Shown here: in pieces, positions 5,764 through 42,361 of the stretch
How the letters are laid out: the number at the start of each line of letters is the position of its first letter
Position numbering within the stretch: position 1 is the first letter of the stretch
Assembly: GCA_030655755.1 (NCBI GenBank)
Contig: JAUSOQ010000033.1
Span: forward strand, 1-42,424
DNA: 42,424 nt
Source: Coriobacteriia bacterium
GTDB lineage: Bacteria > Actinomycetota > Coriobacteriia > Anaerosomatales > Anaerosomataceae
Direction: 5' to 3'
The notes under the pieces: model-generated
Databases searched by the model: none
Told to the model about the DNA's origin: nothing
Seen by the model: only the letters and a program-made list of their open reading frames with translations
Position numbers and translations under genes: made by a program

Positions 5764-8433
5764 ATGGATGACTTCGACCGCAATGCACGTCGTACGCCCT
5801 CATCGGGTGGCGACCGCAAAAACCCCAAACTCCGACCGCGTCCGCGTTCCGGCGCGCAGCCGACTCAACGCAAGCGGACAGCACAGCCAGCGCAACGCAA
5901 GCGGACGTCCACTGGTCAGAGCGGTTCGCGTATTGCGCCCCAACGCCGATCAGGCGCAGGCCAGCGCCGACCTTCCAGCGCGAAGACTGCCGGCCGCAAA
6001 CCTAAACCTCCTCGTAGCCGCTGGCGCAAGGTGTTGCGCATCATGCTGATCGCCGCGGCGCTTGGACTCGTGGGCGGACTCATCGCAGTCGGCATCGTGT
6101 ACGCCTCCGTGACCAAAGACCTCCCGGACCTCCAGAACCCCACCAAGGGACGCGACCAGACAAGCGTCGTCTACGCCCGCGACGGCGCAGTGATCACAGA
6201 GTTGTTCGCCGAACAGAACCGTACCGACGTCACCTTCGTTCAGATCCCCGTCCAACTGCGCCAGGCGGTCATCTCCACCGAGGACCAGCGCTTCTACGAG
6301 CACAACGGTGTGGACCCACTCGGCATCGCCCGCGCACTGTGGGTCGACGTCACGCAGGGCAAACGACACGGCGGCTCGACCATCACGCAGCAGTACGTCG
6401 TCAACACCTTCGTCGAGCGCGAGAGCACTGTGACGCGCAAGCTCAAGGAAGCGATACTCGCGTATCGACTGGAGAAGGAGTACTCGAAAGACGAGATATT
6501 GACGATGTACCTGAACACCATCTACTTCGGCCATGGAGCGTATGGCGTGCAGTCCGCCGCAGAGACCTACTTCGGCAAGAATGTAGAAGACCTCACGCTG
6601 GCTGAATGCGCCATGATCGGTGGCGTCATCAAGGCACCCGGACGCTACTCCCCGCGAATCGATCCTGACGCCGCCAAGGTGCGCCGGGACACCGTGCTCG
6701 GCCAGATGCTTGAAGAAGCCTATGTCGACCAGGCCGAACACGACGCGGCAGTCGCCGAGGAGTTCACTCTCGCGCAGCCGAAAGTCGACACGGTCACACC
6801 CGCGCCCTACTTCGTGGAGTGGGTGAAGCAGACCCTCATCGATGAGTACGGGCCCGACATGGTCTTCAAGGGCGGCCTGCACATCACGACCACGATCGAC
6901 CTTCGTATGCAGCAAGCTGCCGAGGACGCCATCGCCGCCGAGCTTGACCGTGAGGACGACCCATCGGCGTCCTTGGTGGCTATCGATCCGAGCACCGGCG
7001 AAGTACTCGCGATGGTGGGCGGGCGCGACTTCGCGATACAGCAATACAACGTCGCAGTGCAGGGTCACCGGCAGCCGGGCTCATCGTTCAAGCCATTCGT
7101 TCTCGTGACCGGTCTTGAGAACGGCGTACTCCCCGAACAGACCTACGAGTCCGGACCCGCCAGACTAGACATCCCCGGCGGGCAGGTATGGAAGGTCACC
7201 GGCACCTCGGCCGGCGGACTGATGCGATTGCGCCAGGCCACGGAGAAGTCGGTGAACTCGGTCTTCGCGCAACTCATTCTCGAAGTGGGCGCCGACACCG
7301 TGGTCGAAACGGCACACCGTCTCGGCATCACGAGCGAAGTGGAGGCCGTGCCGGCGATCGCGCTTGGCGGACTGAGGACAGGTGTGACGCCGCTCGAGAT
7401 GGCATCAGCGTATGGGACTCTGGCCAACCAAGGGACACACATCCCGCCATACGGCATCCTCGAAGTGAAAGACGCTACGGGGGAGATCTTGGAGACTGCG
7501 GACGCTGAAGGCACGGAGGCCATCTCCCCCGCTGTCGCATACCTCACCACGGACATGCTGGAGGGAGTCATCACAAAGGGTACGGGCACGGCGGCCAAGA
7601 TCGGTCGGCCCGCTGTCGGCAAGACCGGGACCACGCAGAAGTACCGCGACGCATGGTTCTGCGGCTACACGCCCCAGATCACCGCATCAGTGTGGGTCGG
7701 CTACGTCGAAGGTCAGATCGAGATGAGCGACGTGCATGGTCGCAAAGTGACCGGCGGTTCCTTCCCCGCCGAGATCTGGGCCCGCTTCATGAAGGCCGCC
7801 TTGGACGGCCAGCCGAAGGAAGACTTCGAACGGCCGAAGGGGCTCACCTCGGTCAGCATCTGCCTCGAATCGGGGCAGCTGGCCACCGAGTTCTGTGAGA
7901 AGACCGGCTCCGCGCTGTTCCTCGTCGGACACACTCCTGTCGAATGCGAGCTGCATACAGGTCCGACGCAAGTCGAACTCCCCAACTTCATCGGCATGAC
8001 AAAGGAGGCCGCGATCGCACTCCTGAACAACCTCATGCTGTTGTTCAAAGTGGAGGAGCAGGAGATGGCGGGTGTACCCGCCGGAATCGTTGGTGACCAG
8101 GATCCGCGATATCCCAGCACCGTGACGACAAACACCGTCATCACGCTGTATGTATCGAAGGGAGCACCGGCTGCCCTGCCGCCTGTCGCGTCGTTCGTCT
8201 ACGCACCCCAAGCACCTAAGCCTAACGACCAGATCACCTTCGATGCTTCGGAGTCCGAAGACGACGGCGAGATCATAAAATACGCGTGGGAGTTCGACGA
8301 CTCATCACCACTTGCCGAAGGAGTCATCGTGAAGCACTCTTTCACTGCCGCTGGCAAGTACACTGTCACTCTATGGGTGACCGACAATAGCGGTCAGGTC
8401 TCCAGCCTGCCTGTGGTCATCGAGGTCGAGTAG
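5764..8433 (+). CDS. class A penicillin-binding protein with PASTA and PKD domains
   Basis: Bifunctional peptidoglycan glycosyltransferase/transpeptidase, 889 residues, anchored in the cytoplasmic membrane. In order: a basic, Pro/Gln-rich cytoplasmic tail (1-88) with an imperfect QRKRT repeat; one membrane span (about 90-114); a GT51 domain with EDQRFYEH (catalytic Glu about 173) and GGSTITQQ (203-210); a transpeptidase domain with SSFK (440-443), SVN (496-498) and KTGTT (620-624); a PASTA domain (about 735-800); and a PKD-like Ig fold (about 806-889) with FDASESEDDGEI and the typical YAWEFDD and HSFTAAGKYTVTLWV. All catalytic motifs are intact. A C-terminal PKD domain is unusual in this family. 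It ends 2 bases before the convergent U32 gene. No strong ribosome site precedes the ATG, so the start is moderately sure. Confidence 0.95.
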   Translation: MDDFDRNARRTPSSGGDRKNPKLRPRPRSGAQPTQRKRTAQPAQRKRTSTGQSGSRIAPQRRSGAGQRRPSSAKTAGRKPKPPRSRWRKVLRIMLIAAALGLVGGLIAVGIVYASVTKDLPDLQNPTKGRDQTSVVYARDGAVITELFAEQNRTDVTFVQIPVQLRQAVISTEDQRFYEHNGVDPLGIARALWVDVTQGKRHGGSTITQQYVVNTFVERESTVTRKLKEAILAYRLEKEYSKDEILTMYLNTIYFGHGAYGVQSAAETYFGKNVEDLTLAECAMIGGVIKAPGRYSPRIDPDAAKVRRDTVLGQMLEEAYVDQAEHDAAVAEEFTLAQPKVDTVTPAPYFVEWVKQTLIDEYGPDMVFKGGLHITTTIDLRMQQAAEDAIAAELDREDDPSASLVAIDPSTGEVLAMVGGRDFAIQQYNVAVQGHRQPGSSFKPFVLVTGLENGVLPEQTYESGPARLDIPGGQVWKVTGTSAGGLMRLRQATEKSVNSVFAQLILEVGADTVVETAHRLGITSEVEAVPAIALGGLRTGVTPLEMASAYGTLANQGTHIPPYGILEVKDATGEILETADAEGTEAISPAVAYLTTDMLEGVITKGTGTAAKIGRPAVGKTGTTQKYRDAWFCGYTPQITASVWVGYVEGQIEMSDVHGRKVTGGSFPAEIWARFMKAALDGQPKEDFERPKGLTSVSICLESGQLATEFCEKTGSALFLVGHTPVECELHTGPTQVELPNFIGMTKEAAIALLNNLMLLFKVEEQEMAGVPAGIVGDQDPRYPSTVTTNTVITLYVSKGAPAALPPVASFVYAPQAPKPNDQITFDASESEDDGEIIKYAWEFDDSSPLAEGVIVKHSFTAAGKYTVTLWVTDNSGQVSSLPVVIEVE

Positions 8434-10859: not shown

Positions 10860-11001
10860 GACGGTTCGCCTTCAGTAGAGTGAGTGACACACGGCGTCGC
10901 GCCGAACACGAGTATACAATGCCTAGACGACACTTAACGCCGCGACCTGGCATCACGAGGCACAAGCCGCCATAATGGGTCGTCGGACGAAGGGAAGCCT
11001 G

Positions 11002-13209
11002 ATGTCAAGGCGCACGCGGCTCCGCCGCATGAAGAAACCACATATTGCGGTCCGCGTCATCATGGCCGGCATAGCACTTTCGCTTGCTGTCACAGTGCTC
11101 TTCACGGGCATCGGTATAGCTGGAGCGTTCGCGATGGTCTCCGGCTGGCTGACGGATCTTCCAAGCCTCGACGACCCCAACGCCTTCAAAGTCGCGCAGA
11201 CCACGAAGGTATACTCGGCAGATAACAAGCTCATCGCCAACCTGTACCTGGAGAACCGACAAGTAGTCGAACTCGAGGAGATCTCACCGCACCTGCAGCA
11301 CGCGCTGGTCTCGGTCGAGGACGAACGCTTCTATACACACAACGGCTTCGACGCTGTGGGCATCGCTCGCGCTTTCGTCACAAACCTGGCGAAGGGCGGC
11401 GTAGCGGAAGGCGCTTCGACCATCACCCAGCAATACATCCGCAACACGATCCTTACAGACGAACGCTACGACATCTCGTACCGCCGCAAAGCGCGCGAAG
11501 CGTATCTCGCCTACCAACTCGAACAACGCATGTCCAAAGACGAAGTCCTCAGCGTGTACCTCAATACGGTCTACTTCGGCGAGGGTGCGTATGGTGCAGA
11601 GTCGGCGGCACTCACCTTCTTCAACAAGCATGCTTCCGACCTGACCATCGCCGAAGCGGCACTCCTGGCCGGTCTTCCTCAATCCCCAAGTCGGCTCTCG
11701 CCCTACGAGAACGCCGAAGGCGCTGTCTCGCGCCGACAGTGGGTTCTAAGCAAGATGCATGAGCAGGGCTACATCACCGACGGTGAGTACGAGGCGGCCA
11801 AGATCGAGGAGCTACACCTCGAACGCGCGCCACAGCTCGACGAACAGGGTGTTTACTCGGCGCCCTACTTCGTCGCTCACGTGAAGAAGCTCCTGCAGGA
11901 TGAGTACGGTACGGGCCTCGTGTTCCAGGGCGGCTTGACCGTCTACACGACGCTCGATACCACCATGCAAGATCAGGCCGAGAAGGCCTGTCGCAAGATC
12001 ATGGACCGTGACACAGACCCGGACTACGCACTTGTGGCGATCGAGCCCGAGACCGGCAAGATCAAGGCTCTCGTTGGCGGCAAGGACTGGGACACCAACA
12101 AGTTCAACTTCGCCACACAGGCCAAACGACAGCCCGGCTCGTCGTTCAAGATGTTCACACTGGTCACCGCGCTCAAGCAGGGCATGCCGCCGACGCGCAA
12201 GATCGACTCCTCCTCACCAGCGATCATCGCGACCGGGGGCAAGCCCTGGCGCGTTACTGGCGGCGGCAAGGGCTACATCACACTCCAGCAAGCGACCGTG
12301 GGCTCAGTCAACGCCGCCTTCGCACGGCTCATCGCAGAGATAGGCGCGGAGCCGGTCGTCGAGACCGCCCACGATATGGGCATCACGACCGACATCCAGC
12401 CGTATCTGTCGATCACACTCGGCAGCCAGGAAGTGACCCCTCTTGAGATGACCGCGTCGTTCGCAACACTCGCCAATCAAGGAACACACATCCCCCCCGT
12501 GGCGATCGAGAAGGTCCTCGACGCGAGCGGCGAGACCATCTACGAAGCTGATCATAAAGGGACCGAAGCGATCAGCCCTTCGATCGCCTACGCGGCGACG
12601 CAGATCCTCAAGGGCGTCATCAGTGGCGGGACGGCGACTCGGGCCAACATCGGGCGTCCTGCGGCCGGCAAGACCGGCACCACACAAGACTACCGGGACG
12701 CATGGTTCTGCGGCTTCACGCCGCAGCTTTCATGTGCGGTGTGGATGGGCTACACGCCGGAGAAACCGATGCGGAACGTACACGGCATCACGGTGTTCGG
12801 TGGAACGTTCCCGGCGATGATCTGGGCCGAGTTCATGAAGAACGCCCTCGCAAATGAGCCGAAGCTTGATTTCAAGAGCGCCCCGGCGCCGGCATACACC
12901 TGGAAGAAAAAGTGGGACGTCCCGGATATCGCCATCCCCAATGTCACCGGCATGACGCAGGCCGCTGCCGAGAAGGCTCTCACCGACGCCAAACTCGAGG
13001 CCACGGCCTCTCAGGCGTACAGCCCGACCGTTGCCGCAGGCTACGTGATCAGCCAGACTCCGGCCGCAGGATCCAAGGCGAAGCCCGCGGACGCTGTCAT
13101 CATCATCGTGTCCAAGGGTCCGGATCCAGCCACGCCACCTCCCCCGGTGACCCCGCCGCCGCCACCCCCAACGAGCACTCCACTCCCAACGAGCACTCCT
13201 ACCCCATAA
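11002..13209 (+). CDS. class A penicillin-binding protein with PASTA domain
   Basis: A second bifunctional glycosyltransferase/transpeptidase. I chose the ATG at 11002 (735 residues) because GAAGGGA lies 6 bases before it; the ATG at 10975 adds 9 residues without a ribosome site. Numbered from the longer form: basic N-terminus, membrane span about 24-55, GT51 with EDERFYTHNG (Glu about 115) and ASTITQQ, transpeptidase SSFK (389-392), SVN (444-446), KTGTT (566-570), one PASTA domain (about 654-716), then a Pro/Thr/Ser tail (718-744) encoded partly by a short direct repeat. All active-site residues are present. It lacks the PKD domain of the neighbouring PBP, so the two are diverged paralogues around the U32 gene. 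Confidence 0.95.
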   Translation: MSRRTRLRRMKKPHIAVRVIMAGIALSLAVTVLFTGIGIAGAFAMVSGWLTDLPSLDDPNAFKVAQTTKVYSADNKLIANLYLENRQVVELEEISPHLQHALVSVEDERFYTHNGFDAVGIARAFVTNLAKGGVAEGASTITQQYIRNTILTDERYDISYRRKAREAYLAYQLEQRMSKDEVLSVYLNTVYFGEGAYGAESAALTFFNKHASDLTIAEAALLAGLPQSPSRLSPYENAEGAVSRRQWVLSKMHEQGYITDGEYEAAKIEELHLERAPQLDEQGVYSAPYFVAHVKKLLQDEYGTGLVFQGGLTVYTTLDTTMQDQAEKACRKIMDRDTDPDYALVAIEPETGKIKALVGGKDWDTNKFNFATQAKRQPGSSFKMFTLVTALKQGMPPTRKIDSSSPAIIATGGKPWRVTGGGKGYITLQQATVGSVNAAFARLIAEIGAEPVVETAHDMGITTDIQPYLSITLGSQEVTPLEMTASFATLANQGTHIPPVAIEKVLDASGETIYEADHKGTEAISPSIAYAATQILKGVISGGTATRANIGRPAAGKTGTTQDYRDAWFCGFTPQLSCAVWMGYTPEKPMRNVHGITVFGGTFPAMIWAEFMKNALANEPKLDFKSAPAPAYTWKKKWDVPDIAIPNVTGMTQAAAEKALTDAKLEATASQAYSPTVAAGYVISQTPAAGSKAKPADAVIIIVSKGPDPATPPPPVTPPPPPPTSTPLPTSTPTP

Positions 13210-37498: not shown

Positions 37499-40150
37499 CT
37501 AGTCGGCGAGCTCGGAGAGCTGCGTGGTGAGCCTGGTGACCGTGTCGACCAGCTCTGCCGCCTTGGCGCGCTCCTTCTCGATGACCTCCACGGCCGCTTT
37601 GGCTAAGAAGCCCTCATTGGCAAGCTTCCCGTTCACGCGTTTGAGTTCGGCCTCGACCTTCTCCAGCTCCTTGGCGATACGCTGTCGCTCGAGTACGAAG
37701 TCCACCAGGCCCTCGAGAGGAACGAATACTTCCATGTCACCCGCGACAAAGGCCGCCGAATGCGCCGGCTTCGTCGCATCCACACCGGCCGAGAAATGGC
37801 TCACACCTGCGAGACGCTCCATGAGACCGAACTCCTGCTTGACCCAGACCATGTCTGAGTCTCCGGTAGTCCTGAACACGACACGAAGACCCTGTTTCGG
37901 CGGGATAGTGTAGCGTGCACGCACGGCTCTGACACCCACTGCGAGTTCGATGAGTCGTCCGATCGATCGCTCGGCGTCTTCGTCGCGAAAACCCTCCAGA
38001 CCCGTCGGCCATGCTGCGATCATCAGCGACTCGGCGCGATCCTGCTCGGCCAGAGGCAGGCTTCGCCAGATCTCCTCGGTCACGAACGGCATCATAGGGT
38101 GCAGCAGACGCAAGGCCTTGTCGAGCACGAAGACAAGGTTGCGCTGAACCGTGAGCCGTGCATCGTTGCCCTGTGCAAGGCGAGGCTTGGCCAGCTCGAT
38201 GTACCAGTCACAGAACTCGCTCCAGAAAAAGTCGTAGAGAGCGCGAGCTGTCTCGCCGAACTCGAACGTGTCGAGTCCCTCATCCACACGCGCGGCAAGA
38301 TCGGCCAGGCGTGAGAGTATCCACGCATCGGCGACCGTCTCAGCCTTGGGCTCACCGGGCGTGTAGCCTTCGGCCACGTTCATCATCACGAACCGGCTCG
38401 CGTTCCAGATCTTGTTGGCGAAGTTGCGACTCGAAAGCAGCTTCTCCTCGGCAAACTTGATGTCCTGGTTGCCGGTCACCTGCAGCATGAGGCCGAAGCG
38501 CATGCCGTCGGCACCGTAGTGTTCCATCAAGTCGAGCGGATCAACGCCCGTACCGAGCGACTTGGACATGCGTTTGCCTTCGGCGTTGAAGACGGTGGGG
38601 TGGATGATGACGTCGGTGAAGGGGACCTTACCATTGTTGAAGTACATGCCACTCATGACCATGCGGGCGACCCAGAGAAACAGGATATCGCGCGCCGTCG
38701 AGAGCACGCTGGTGGGGTAGAAGAAGCCCAGTTCCGGCGTGTGCTCGGGCCAGCCGAGCGTGGCGAACGGCCACAGTTGCGAAGAGAACCATGTGTCGAG
38801 TACGTCCTCGTCCTGTCGCATCGCGCCACCACACTTGGCGCACTCGGTGAGGTCGGTCTCACTCGCGACCTGCTCACCACAGGCATCGCAGTAGAAGACC
38901 GGGATCTGGTGTCCCCACCAGAGCTGGCGTGAGACACACCAATCGCGAATGTTCTCCATCCAGTGGTAGTAGACGTTCTCCCATCGCCGGGGATGGAACT
39001 CTACGCGCCCGTCGCGTACAGCCTTGATGGCCGGCTTGGCTAACGGCTTCATGTCGACGAACCACTGGTCGGAGAGCCAGGGCTCGATGACCGTATGGCA
39101 GCGATAGCAGTGACCGACTGAGTGAACGTGGTCCTCGGTAGCCACGAGCAGCCCTTGCCCGTCCAGGTCGGCGATCACGCGTTTGCGCGCCTCGTAGCGG
39201 TCAAGACCGGCGTAGGGGCCACCTTCCGCTGTGATGGTCGCATCCGCGTTCATGATGTTGATCTTGGCGCAATCGTGGCGTTCACCGATCTCGAAGTCGT
39301 TGGGGTCGTGCGCCGGTGTGACCTTCACGACACCGGTACCGAAACTCGGGTCCACATAGCTGTCAGCGACGATCGGGATCTCGCGACCGAGCAATGGAAG
39401 GACCACGGTGGCGCCCACGACCGCCGCGTACCGCTCGTCTTCGGGATGCACGGCCACGCAGGTATCACCAAGCATCGTCTCGGGACGCGTTGTCGCGACG
39501 ATCACGTGGTCGACGCCGCCGACCGGCTCTTTGAGCAGGTAGCGGATGTGCCACAGATGGCTGTCCAGTTCCTCGTGCTCGACCTCGATGTCGGAAAGCG
39601 CGGTCGCGCAACGCGGACACCAGTTGATGATGCGCTTGCCGCGGTAGATGAGCCCGGCGTTGTACCAGTCCACGAAGACTTTGCGTACCGCAGACTGGTA
39701 GCTCGAGTCCATCGTGAAATGCTCGTCAGAGTAGTCGCAGCTGCAGCCCATCGCCTTGAGCTGCTGGATGATGGTGGAACCGTGCTCTACACGCCACTCC
39801 CAACAGAGCTCGACGAATCGCTCGCGACCGACGTCATGACGCGAGAACCCCTGGGCCGCGAGCATCTGCTCGACCTTGTTCTGCGTCGCGATCCCGGCGT
39901 GGTCGGTACCAACGACCCAGCGGGTGGGCCGACCGGTCATCCTGTGACGCCTGATGACGACATCCTGGATGGTGTTGTTCAGCGCATGCCCCATGTGCAG
40001 GGAGCCGGTGACGTTGGGCGGCGGGATAACGATCGTGAACGGGTGCTCGCCCTCAGTAATCTCCTGCTCGAAGTAGCGGCCTGCGGTCCAGGCATCGAAG
40101 ATGGGCCCTTCGACGGCCTTTGGATCGTACGCTTTTGCCATTTCGCTCAT
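37499..40150 (-). CDS. valS: valyl-tRNA synthetase
   Basis: Class I synthetase charging tRNA-Val, with an editing domain. I set the start at ATG 40150 (883 residues, MSEMAKAYDPKAVEGPIFDAW) because relatives begin here; the reading from 40258 adds 36 residues without homology-like sequence. Motifs: PPNVTGSLHMGHALNN (HIGH), the editing domain with TTRPETMLGDTCVAVHPED, a zinc ribbon CDACGEQ...CAKCGG, RMSKSLGTGVDP (KMSKS), and a C-terminal coiled coil (ERQRIAKELEKVEAELKRV). No T-box was found upstream. GGAAGGG lies about 12 bases before the ATG. Confidence 0.96.
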   Translation of the reverse strand: MSEMAKAYDPKAVEGPIFDAWTAGRYFEQEITEGEHPFTIVIPPPNVTGSLHMGHALNNTIQDVVIRRHRMTGRPTRWVVGTDHAGIATQNKVEQMLAAQGFSRHDVGRERFVELCWEWRVEHGSTIIQQLKAMGCSCDYSDEHFTMDSSYQSAVRKVFVDWYNAGLIYRGKRIINWCPRCATALSDIEVEHEELDSHLWHIRYLLKEPVGGVDHVIVATTRPETMLGDTCVAVHPEDERYAAVVGATVVLPLLGREIPIVADSYVDPSFGTGVVKVTPAHDPNDFEIGERHDCAKINIMNADATITAEGGPYAGLDRYEARKRVIADLDGQGLLVATEDHVHSVGHCYRCHTVIEPWLSDQWFVDMKPLAKPAIKAVRDGRVEFHPRRWENVYYHWMENIRDWCVSRQLWWGHQIPVFYCDACGEQVASETDLTECAKCGGAMRQDEDVLDTWFSSQLWPFATLGWPEHTPELGFFYPTSVLSTARDILFLWVARMVMSGMYFNNGKVPFTDVIIHPTVFNAEGKRMSKSLGTGVDPLDLMEHYGADGMRFGLMLQVTGNQDIKFAEEKLLSSRNFANKIWNASRFVMMNVAEGYTPGEPKAETVADAWILSRLADLAARVDEGLDTFEFGETARALYDFFWSEFCDWYIELAKPRLAQGNDARLTVQRNLVFVLDKALRLLHPMMPFVTEEIWRSLPLAEQDRAESLMIAAWPTGLEGFRDEDAERSIGRLIELAVGVRAVRARYTIPPKQGLRVVFRTTGDSDMVWVKQEFGLMERLAGVSHFSAGVDATKPAHSAAFVAGDMEVFVPLEGLVDFVLERQRIAKELEKVEAELKRVNGKLANEGFLAKAAVEVIEKERAKAAELVDTVTRLTTQLSELAD

Positions 40151-40484
40151 AGGAGACGCAGCCCTTCCATCGCCCGCTCGATGACAGACGATTCTACGCG
40201 AAAAGCTGTCCCCAAGCGACCCACAGAAGATGGGGCGAAGGCATCCAGACTCGGACATTCACCAAACAGGCGGACTCTTCCTTCAGTGAGGTTTTCAGAA
40301 TCGAACAGAGGAGAAGAACCGAGACCACCGGACAACTCTACTGAGCCAGATGCGGCGCATCATTGGCCACAACGAACAGAGTATGTTCTGAATATCCAGA
40401 ACATACTCTGATGGGTCACATCTTCAAGTGAAGTCTACCTTGACTCTCCCGAAGCTGGTATGCGAAGTCAAACAAGTGTGGTGC
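40151..40484 (-). other. 334-base intergenic region upstream of valS
   Basis: No coding sequence is supported here; the drawn ORFs lack ribosome sites and protein character. It holds a -10-like TAGAAT on the complement (40191-40196) some 40 bases before valS, with no good -35, and the long inverted repeat at 40377-40410. I see no T-box core. Confidence 0.5.
40377..40410. repeat. perfect 14-base inverted repeat with 6-base loop
   Basis: CAGAGTATGTTCTG and CAGAACATACTCTG are exact complements around AATATC. It lies 75 bases past the stop of the exported-protein gene at 40485. On the minus strand TTCGTTGTGG follows, so it is a plausible terminator of that cluster; the AT-rich, symmetric core could also be an operator. 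Confidence 0.7.
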
Positions 40485-40949
40485 TTACTCCTCAACGATA
40501 AGCACACTCTCTAAGATGTCATCCCCCATATCCACATGCGTGATCTCAACACGTCTTGGCATCTCCCTCCACGGTCCGCTCACTTCAACGGAACCGTCAT
40601 CGAAGTAGACCCACAGCTCAAGTGTCCCCTCATTTGCGCCCTGCTCAAAGACGTCGCCTACGAGTTCGGCATCCATGCTGAAATCTGCCTTGCGCATTTC
40701 CTTCTTCACAATGCGCTTCGCATCACAGCTAATCCCAGTGGCTCCCTTGTCACCGACAAGGCCACTGTACTGCTTCTCAATTTCACCCTGCCATTTGGCC
40801 TGCGAGGCTTCCCGCGCTTCTGCGCTCTTCCTGGTCTCTCTAGCAGCCCCGTTCCCGTCCATACCTGAACCCAAGGCGATACCGGACCCGGCCACAAGTG
40901 CCAATGCCATGACACAACATGACAGTACGATACGCTTTCTCTTACCCAT
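40485..40949 (-). CDS. exported protein of unknown function (154 aa)
   Basis: I do not recognise the family. The ATG at 40949 has a long G-rich ribosome site (GAGGGGGGGGCAACG) and starts MGKRKRIVLSCCVMALALVA, a good signal peptide; the longer reading from 41069 runs into the upstream gene and is rejected. The mature part has a charged Lys/Glu-rich stretch (about 35-62), then SCDAKRIVKKEMRKADF, and a compact acidic C-terminal half with ELWVYFDDGSVEV. One cysteine remains after the signal. It follows the aromatic-rich exported protein by 13 bases and is co-transcribed with it. Codon use is less GC-rich than in the neighbouring core genes. Confidence 0.7.
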   Translation of the reverse strand: MGKRKRIVLSCCVMALALVAGSGIALGSGMDGNGAARETRKSAEAREASQAKWQGEIEKQYSGLVGDKGATGISCDAKRIVKKEMRKADFSMDAELVGDVFEQGANEGTLELWVYFDDGSVEVSGPWREMPRRVEITHVDMGDDILESVLIVEE

Positions 40950-40962
40950 CGTTGCCCCCCCC

Positions 40963-41445
40963 TCACCAAATGGACAGATACATTGTCTTATAACTACTAT
41001 CGTAGCAATGGCCAAAGAGCCAACCAGCCGTACCCCAAAGTTGTTGATGACTGGAATTGCGATAGCCATAGGTGCTCACCTTGTAGGCTCCGTTGCCCCA
41101 CATATTGTAGGCCGACCATGACCTTCTGGGAGACGCATGGACACCACTATCGACTGATGCGTAGCTCCTCCAGTACTTGCCGAACACGTACGCCCCATTC
41201 CTATAGAACTGTTGTCTGTCGTACACATAGCACCAAGGTGCGCCCCAGGCCTGCTGAGTAGAACTGGTGAACACCCCGCCGGGATATGTGAACGACGTGT
41301 CGTGTGCAACAATTACAATTGAGAGATAATTCGTTCCCGCACAGTGCGCATAGGCCCCCTGCGGAACCGCCGCAAACAGAATACCCATACTCAGAAACAC
41401 GATTATGATGCGCCTCCGAAGTAGAGACTCTCTTCGTTGATGCAC
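40963..41445 (-). CDS. exported aromatic-rich protein of unknown function (160 aa)
   Basis: Not recognised. The start is GTG at 41445 with AGGGGGG 5 bases upstream. A clear signal peptide (basic RRESLLRRR, hydrophobic IIIVFLSMGILFAAV, cleavage after QGAYA at about residue 33) leaves a mature protein of about 127 residues. By eye count it has 8 tryptophans and 15 tyrosines, three cysteines (35, 72, 147) and Gly/Ser/Asn-rich turns (AYNMWGNGAYKVSTYGYRN). That composition suggests a small secreted beta-sheet protein, for example a wall- or carbohydrate-binding protein or a bacteriocin-like protein; no motif decides this. It lies 39 bases after the membrane peptide gene and 13 before the next exported protein. 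Confidence 0.7.
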   Translation of the reverse strand: MHQRRESLLRRRIIIVFLSMGILFAAVPQGAYAHCAGTNYLSIVIVAHDTSFTYPGGVFTSSTQQAWGAPWCYVYDRQQFYRNGAYVFGKYWRSYASVDSGVHASPRRSWSAYNMWGNGAYKVSTYGYRNSSHQQLWGTAGWLFGHCYDSSYKTMYLSIW

Positions 41446-41484
41446 GTCAACCCCCCTCGTACCTGTCTGCGCCCCCGCACAGTA

Positions 41485-41613
41485 CTACCACCAGACACTT
41501 TCTCCTGAAAATACGTCGAAACCAATGAAGTAGAGGATTGCGACGATCACGCAGATGACGACGAGCGCGATCACAATGCGCGTCGTCATTCTCAGATTCG
41601 GTTTCTCGGACAC
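41485..41613 (-). CDS. 42-residue single-span membrane peptide
   Basis: A small gene. GTG at 41613 is preceded by the strong ribosome site GGAGGGGAG with 5 bases spacing. The peptide starts VSEKPNLRMTTR, continues with a membrane span IVIALVVICVIVAILYFIGF, and ends FSGESVWW. It is the first gene of a three-gene minus-strand cluster with two exported proteins. Small membrane peptides in such places act as holins, immunity or leader peptides, but nothing here proves a role. An 85-residue reading in another frame over the same DNA has no ribosome site and is rejected. Confidence 0.55.
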   Translation of the reverse strand: MSEKPNLRMTTRIVIALVVICVIVAILYFIGFDVFSGESVWW

Positions 41614-42007
41614 TACTGCTCCCCTCCTCCCGCACACAATCGCCCCCTACAATCACATGAATGTACACTACTTCATGTGAAATCTGTGCCAATAGCGACA
41701 CCACTCAGGATCACAGGGAAGGTCCATTGCGAGTATCGTGTCGCCAGCTATTGCACATCGCGACAAGCTTAGTCCGCCCACGAATGTGTGCTTCCCAGAA
41801 GGTCAGGATCTCCTCAAGAACAAGGAGACCCGAAGTGTAGAACAAACCAGGCTCGCCACAGCACAGACCGTCGACATTTCAACCCAAGTAGTTATGATCC
41901 CGAGTGCAAACGACTGTCCTGATCCCGGGATACGAACGCCGCCGGTTGTTCCACACACGGGAGCCTCGGTACCGTATATTCACAGCAACATCAAGGGGGA
42001 ATCCGTC
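41614..42007. other. 394-base divergent intergenic region
   Basis: It separates the minus-strand small-gene cluster from the plus-strand lipoprotein gene. It contains an inverted repeat TCACATGAA/TTCATGTGA with a 10-base loop (41653-41680), about 40 bases upstream of the membrane peptide start. I see no convincing -35/-10 pair and no protein-like reading. The long plus-strand ORF beginning at 41738 is coding-like only from about 42008. Confidence 0.5.
41653..41680. promoter_or_regulatory. inverted repeat, candidate operator of the small-gene cluster
   Basis: Perfect 9-base arms TCACATGAA (41653-41661) and TTCATGTGA (41672-41680) around a 10-base centre, just upstream of the membrane peptide gene. 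Arm length and position suit a dimeric regulator site. No regulator gene is adjacent. Confidence 0.4.
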
Positions 42008-42361
42008 TTGTGTGAATTCGATCAATCTCGTCATCTTATCCACTGTGTGCAGCACTATCGGCATGTACTCAATTGCCTGATAGCGCTGGCTGCTGCGCTC
42101 CTGATGGTCGTGTCGTTGCAGGGCTGTGCAGAACAAATCACTGACGCACAACCGGCTACCGAAGCATCTGGCCATCTGACCGTAGATGCCACGGAGTATG
42201 ATTTTGGATCCATAACACAGACTCGAACGGTTACCGCAACGTTTCAACTAACGAACACTGGTGATGGAACCTTGCGGATACTCAATCTAGCGCGAGTTTC
42301 CTGGCTCGCATCCCCAAGGGCCACTGATGGGAAGATGATCTCCCCGCTTCTGGTTCGCTGA
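42008..42361 (+). pseudogene. DUF1573-like lipoprotein gene, C-terminus disrupted
   Basis: I place the start at TTG 42008, where AAGGGGGA lies 7 bases upstream. The protein then has a signal peptide with hydrophobic ALAAALLMVVSLQGC, a lipobox (LQGC), a short linker, and ATEYDFGSITQTRTVTATFQLTNTGDGTLRILN, the opening strands of a DUF1573/ASPM-SPD2-Hydin-type Ig domain. Relatives continue with a segment such as SCGC, but here the reading turns into LARVSWLASPRATDG and stops at 42361. The break falls at about 42288, about 135 bases before the window end, so the gene is probably interrupted by an insertion or a misjoin. An annotator may call the longer ORF from 41738; that part does not look coding. 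Confidence 0.6.

Follow-up and report, generated by a model that had tools for sequence, protein, structure and literature searches.

What do three small genes lying beside valS at the end of a contig encode, and how did they come to be there? We addressed this question in a window, i.e., the whole stretch of DNA analysed, which comprises an entire contig (42,424 bases) from a draft assembly totalling 2.13 Mb and split into 81 contigs. The genes, here called A, B and C, are listed below together with the surrounding elements; homologues of B and C are present in an actinobacterial genome of another class (G204).

37499-40150, minus strand: valS, the immediate 3′ neighbour of the A-B-C cluster.
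40377-40410: loopless palindrome of 34 bp, with 17-nt arms and one mismatch, 74 bases past the stop codon of C.
40485-40949, minus strand: gene C, 154 aa, with a signal peptide; homologue in G204.
40963-41445, minus strand: gene B, 160 aa, GTG start, with a signal peptide ending in AYA, rich in Tyr and Trp; homologue in G204.
40966-41346, minus strand: predicted mature B, 127 aa, beginning with HCAG after AYA.
41485-41613, minus strand: gene A, 42 aa, GTG start, with a single membrane segment.
41653-41680: perfect inverted repeat TCACATGAA-N10-TTCATGTGA, with 9-bp arms and a 10-bp spacer, 39 bases upstream of the start codon of A; candidate operator.

Genes A and B are separated by 39 bases and B and C by 13 bases, and a purine-rich stretch resembling a ribosome-binding site (RBS) is found ahead of each of the three start codons. 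The tight spacing and the ribosome sites described in an earlier, sequence-only reading of this DNA are correct, as are the export signals that it assigned to two of the genes, namely B and C. The description of A-B-C as an operon-like cluster is supported. The evidence that A is a coding gene consists of its RBS, a GC3 of 0.70 and the membrane segment; no homologue of A was found, and the peptide may be an accessory restricted to this lineage. Upstream of the cluster, a divergent ORF on the plus strand (41738-42361) carries a lipoprotein-type signal and matches DUF1573 in part (37 of 98 profile positions, E = 1.5e-6); it stops early near the contig end and looks truncated or frameshifted. Elsewhere in the window, two genes that we named by eye as similar to class-A penicillin-binding proteins are located on the plus strand about 2.5 kb apart (5764-8433 and 10975-13209).

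The cluster is flanked by two symmetrical elements, which had been anticipated as a candidate operator upstream and a hairpin downstream. The inverted repeat at 41653-41680 is indeed perfect, is unique in the window, and was encountered in none of 100 shuffles with three mismatches allowed. The palindrome at 40377-40410 is the sole near-perfect one with arms of at least 13 in the 42 kb, and the RNA of this stretch folds as a strong hairpin (z -3.3). Since it is not accompanied by a T-run, its role as a terminator is unproven. A dispersed repeat is ruled out, because a search of 27 genomes of the family revealed no further copy of the palindrome. Searches of Rfam gave no match upstream or downstream of the cluster.

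Profile searches of A, B, C and the two G204 homologues against Pfam, NCBIfam, PHROGs and PADLOC gave no significant match, in agreement with the initial impression that none of the products could be recognised; weak profile matches of A were set aside as reflecting the composition of its membrane segment. Likewise, no match was obtained with PDB sequence profiles, and no relative was found in phage and plasmid collections or in viral contigs, the latter being searched by protein, profile and motif pattern. The motif-pattern matches in viral contigs were rejected as chance frames. B and C were each also compared with 84,980 species genomes in a scan that finds close relatives only, and none was returned; 69 genomes of the same order contained no convincing relative of either protein.

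Among 396 sampled genomes of the phylum, a single one, G204, was found to contain relatives of both B (E = 1e-6) and C (E = 8e-12). The two genes are found on contig C40 (locus L024, 6507-7453), also at a contig end, and resemble the pair described here in their adjacency, order and strand, being 26 bases apart, as well as in the signal peptide carried by each product. Identity is 28% for B and about 34% for C, and the mature parts alone score higher than any of 2000 shuffles (B, z about 7; C, z about 24). Co-occurrence of all three genes in other genomes, proposed earlier as a check, was therefore borne out for B and C; the trio as a unit is unsupported, since the 260 nt that the contig retains upstream of the G204 B gene yielded no A peptide. 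Profiles identified no third B-C pair in overlapping samples of 396 genomes of the class, 36 genomes of the class of G204 and 396 genomes of the phylum. Besides G204, weak genome matches (e.g., in G051, G353, G122 and G532) were discarded, being short and mostly located in long unrelated frames or across stops. We take B and C as real, linked genes on account of their syntenic homologues in a distant genome; judged by sequence comparison, both are coding and conserved, and the pair is rare.

A long palindrome after C is a further trait common to the two loci. That of G204 is a perfect 32-bp palindrome (L024 6432-6463), located 43 bases after the C gene and the sole one in the 7.7-kb locus. Its sequence is unrelated to that of 40377-40410; it likewise lacks a T-run, and both palindromes fold as strong hairpins. 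Based on n = 2 loci, the resemblance points at most to a shared type of operon end. The loci also differ in what follows, as in G204 the pair precedes three small hypothetical ORFs for membrane or secreted proteins on the same strand (L024 6009-6287, 5561-5980 and 5085-5366), for which no significant Pfam match was found.

As to the origin of the cluster, the GC content drops from about 62% to 51-55% at about position 40,200 and stays at this level up to the contig end. In the sister species G015, clpX is located about 140 bases before valS (L035 1-1359), and a short stretch preceding valS is common to this genome, G015 and G007, with divergence beyond it. Since the GC-poor segment (52-54% GC) begins close before valS, at the place that clpX occupies in the sister species, it was likely acquired horizontally, and the simplest interpretation is that it entered between these two genes; the absence of convincing relatives from the 69 genomes of the order was counted in favour of acquisition. 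The acquisition previously suspected from composition is thus reinforced by the position at valS. Alternatively, the contig end could be a chimera, in which contaminant genes were joined to valS in error during assembly. This explanation could draw on the location of the segment at a contig end of a draft genome in 81 contigs with 1.93% contamination, on the GC shift, on the G204 copy being also at a contig end, and on the missing clpX, no copy of which was found in the assembly despite its completeness rating of 100%. However, the sequence is continuous with valS and with its conserved upstream region, and the presence of the same gene pair in a second assembly implies that the module is real whichever host it belongs to. 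We consider a chimera very improbable. Overall, the B-C pair is more than a chance association and consists of undescribed exported families encoded in a rare, probably acquired operon, though it is not demonstrably a new kind of system.

Mature B contains 11.8% Tyr and 6.3% Trp, which substantiates the richness in these residues pointed out by the sequence-only reading, and aromatic residues account for 22% of mature B and for 22-23% across B and its G204 homologue. The strongest signal in B, which that reading had missed, is the HCAG motif at the predicted mature N-terminus. Indeed, the best conserved block between the two B sequences, AYA-HCAG, consists of seven identical residues straddling the predicted cleavage site, which was placed between AYA and HCAG using the A-X-A rule and conservation; a second conserved block, WGAPxCxVxD, follows. 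The two B sequences match at His1, Cys2, Trp34, Cys39, Asp43 and His100 whichever of the alignment settings tried was applied, whereas the pairing of His70 and His113 varies with the settings. A His is therefore found at predicted mature position 1 in both proteins. Reading the HC dipeptide as the mark of a lipoprotein was rejected, because the Cys is preceded by His and not by Gly, Ala or Ser; mature B has no lipobox. AlphaFold models built on two-row alignments were unusable (pLDDT 35 and 39).

Our favoured reading, a tentative one, sees the locus as a horizontally gained operon that encodes a module of two exported proteins: B would carry a metal site formed with its N-terminal His, and C would be its partner. 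B would be made with a Sec signal peptide, cut between AYA and HCAG, and would fold outside the membrane into a small, aromatic-rich protein, probably of beta structure and stabilised by a Cys2-Cys39 disulfide. The exposed N-terminal His, together with at least one conserved internal His (most robustly His100), would then chelate a transition metal, for instance copper or nickel, while C, exported beside B, might serve as chaperone, anchor or metal acceptor. Within this reading, the exported B-C module is well supported, and the cleavage site, the disulfide and the partnership between B and C are fairly probable; metal binding by B and its use are a guess, possible but with the chances against it.

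His occupies the mature N-terminus of only 2.6% of secreted proteins, and searching for proteins in which signal cleavage leaves a conserved His at the N-terminus, combined with further His residues, led to four bacterial classes with tested metal binding (PMC12537917). We favour an extracellular metal site on B because its conserved His, predicted to be exposed by cleavage, matches this search rule. On the other hand, as only two B sequences are known, the conservation of HCAG may reflect the disulfide and the fold, and not a metal. The second His ligand is uncertain as well, given that His70 and His113 shift with the alignment settings. Genes for metal transport or metal regulation were not seen beside the cluster. 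B shares the predicted mature His1 with the known secreted binders of this kind (DUF4198, DUF6702 and the anglerases Ang-1 and Ang-2, as well as the histidine-brace LPMOs and CopC), which also have further conserved His residues; His100 is the candidate counterpart in B. Unlike them, B is smaller, has a conserved Cys after the His, is encoded alongside an exported partner, and shows no sequence match to any of these families, Pfam searches with B and its G204 homologue having returned neither LPMO, CopC, DUF4198 nor DUF6702; its metal binding is putative. The stronger proposal that B is the founder of a new family of small secreted metalloproteins, with a metal site formed by the cleavage-exposed His-Cys N-terminus and an obligatory exported partner C, is rather unlikely.

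The main rival explanation, for which we see a limited chance, is that B is a Sec-secreted antibacterial protein acting like lactococcin 972, i.e., a small beta-sandwich targeting the cell wall via lipid II, with C, perhaps together with A, as an exported immunity protein or inhibitor. Lactococcin 972-type bacteriocins are Sec-secreted, adopt a beta-sandwich and are encoded in three-gene operons (PMC11796350). Such a function would be consistent with a small, aromatic-rich secreted protein whose gene precedes that of another exported protein, in an acquired segment of sporadic distribution, and B is similar to the members of this group (e.g., streptococcin B) in being a small Sec-secreted protein from a short operon that includes further genes for exported or membrane proteins. 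However, its mature part is longer (127 aa) and its partner genes are of another type and order. In the lactococcin 972 type, predicted immunity and transport genes come second and third, after the bacteriocin, whereas here the membrane peptide comes first and B is followed by one soluble exported protein and then by valS. Furthermore, conservation is higher in C than in B, and no match to Lactococcin_972 (PF09683) was obtained with B and its homologue at E up to 10 or with the genome at E up to 1. The lack of a profile match is compatible with a similar action of B, whose antibacterial activity is putative.

The abundance of aromatic residues in B and its homologue, both secreted and with few conserved charges, could also be explained if B were located at the cell surface or in a matrix and used its Trp and Tyr residues to bind cell wall or glycans, with C anchoring or folding it. 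We regard this as unlikely: only 2-3 of the 8 Trp residues are robustly conserved (W34 and W59), although a binding site should retain them, and no match to a known binding module was found.

B and C define a linked pair of exported families undescribed in the libraries searched. If B acts on other bacteria, it would be a bacteriocin of a new type, originating from an actinobacterial lineage that has been little studied. If the favoured metal-site reading is true, the extracellular metalloproteins with an N-terminal His would gain a small class that depends on a partner. This reading makes a concrete and cheap prediction, namely His-Cys at the start of mature B and the binding of a transition metal by this protein.
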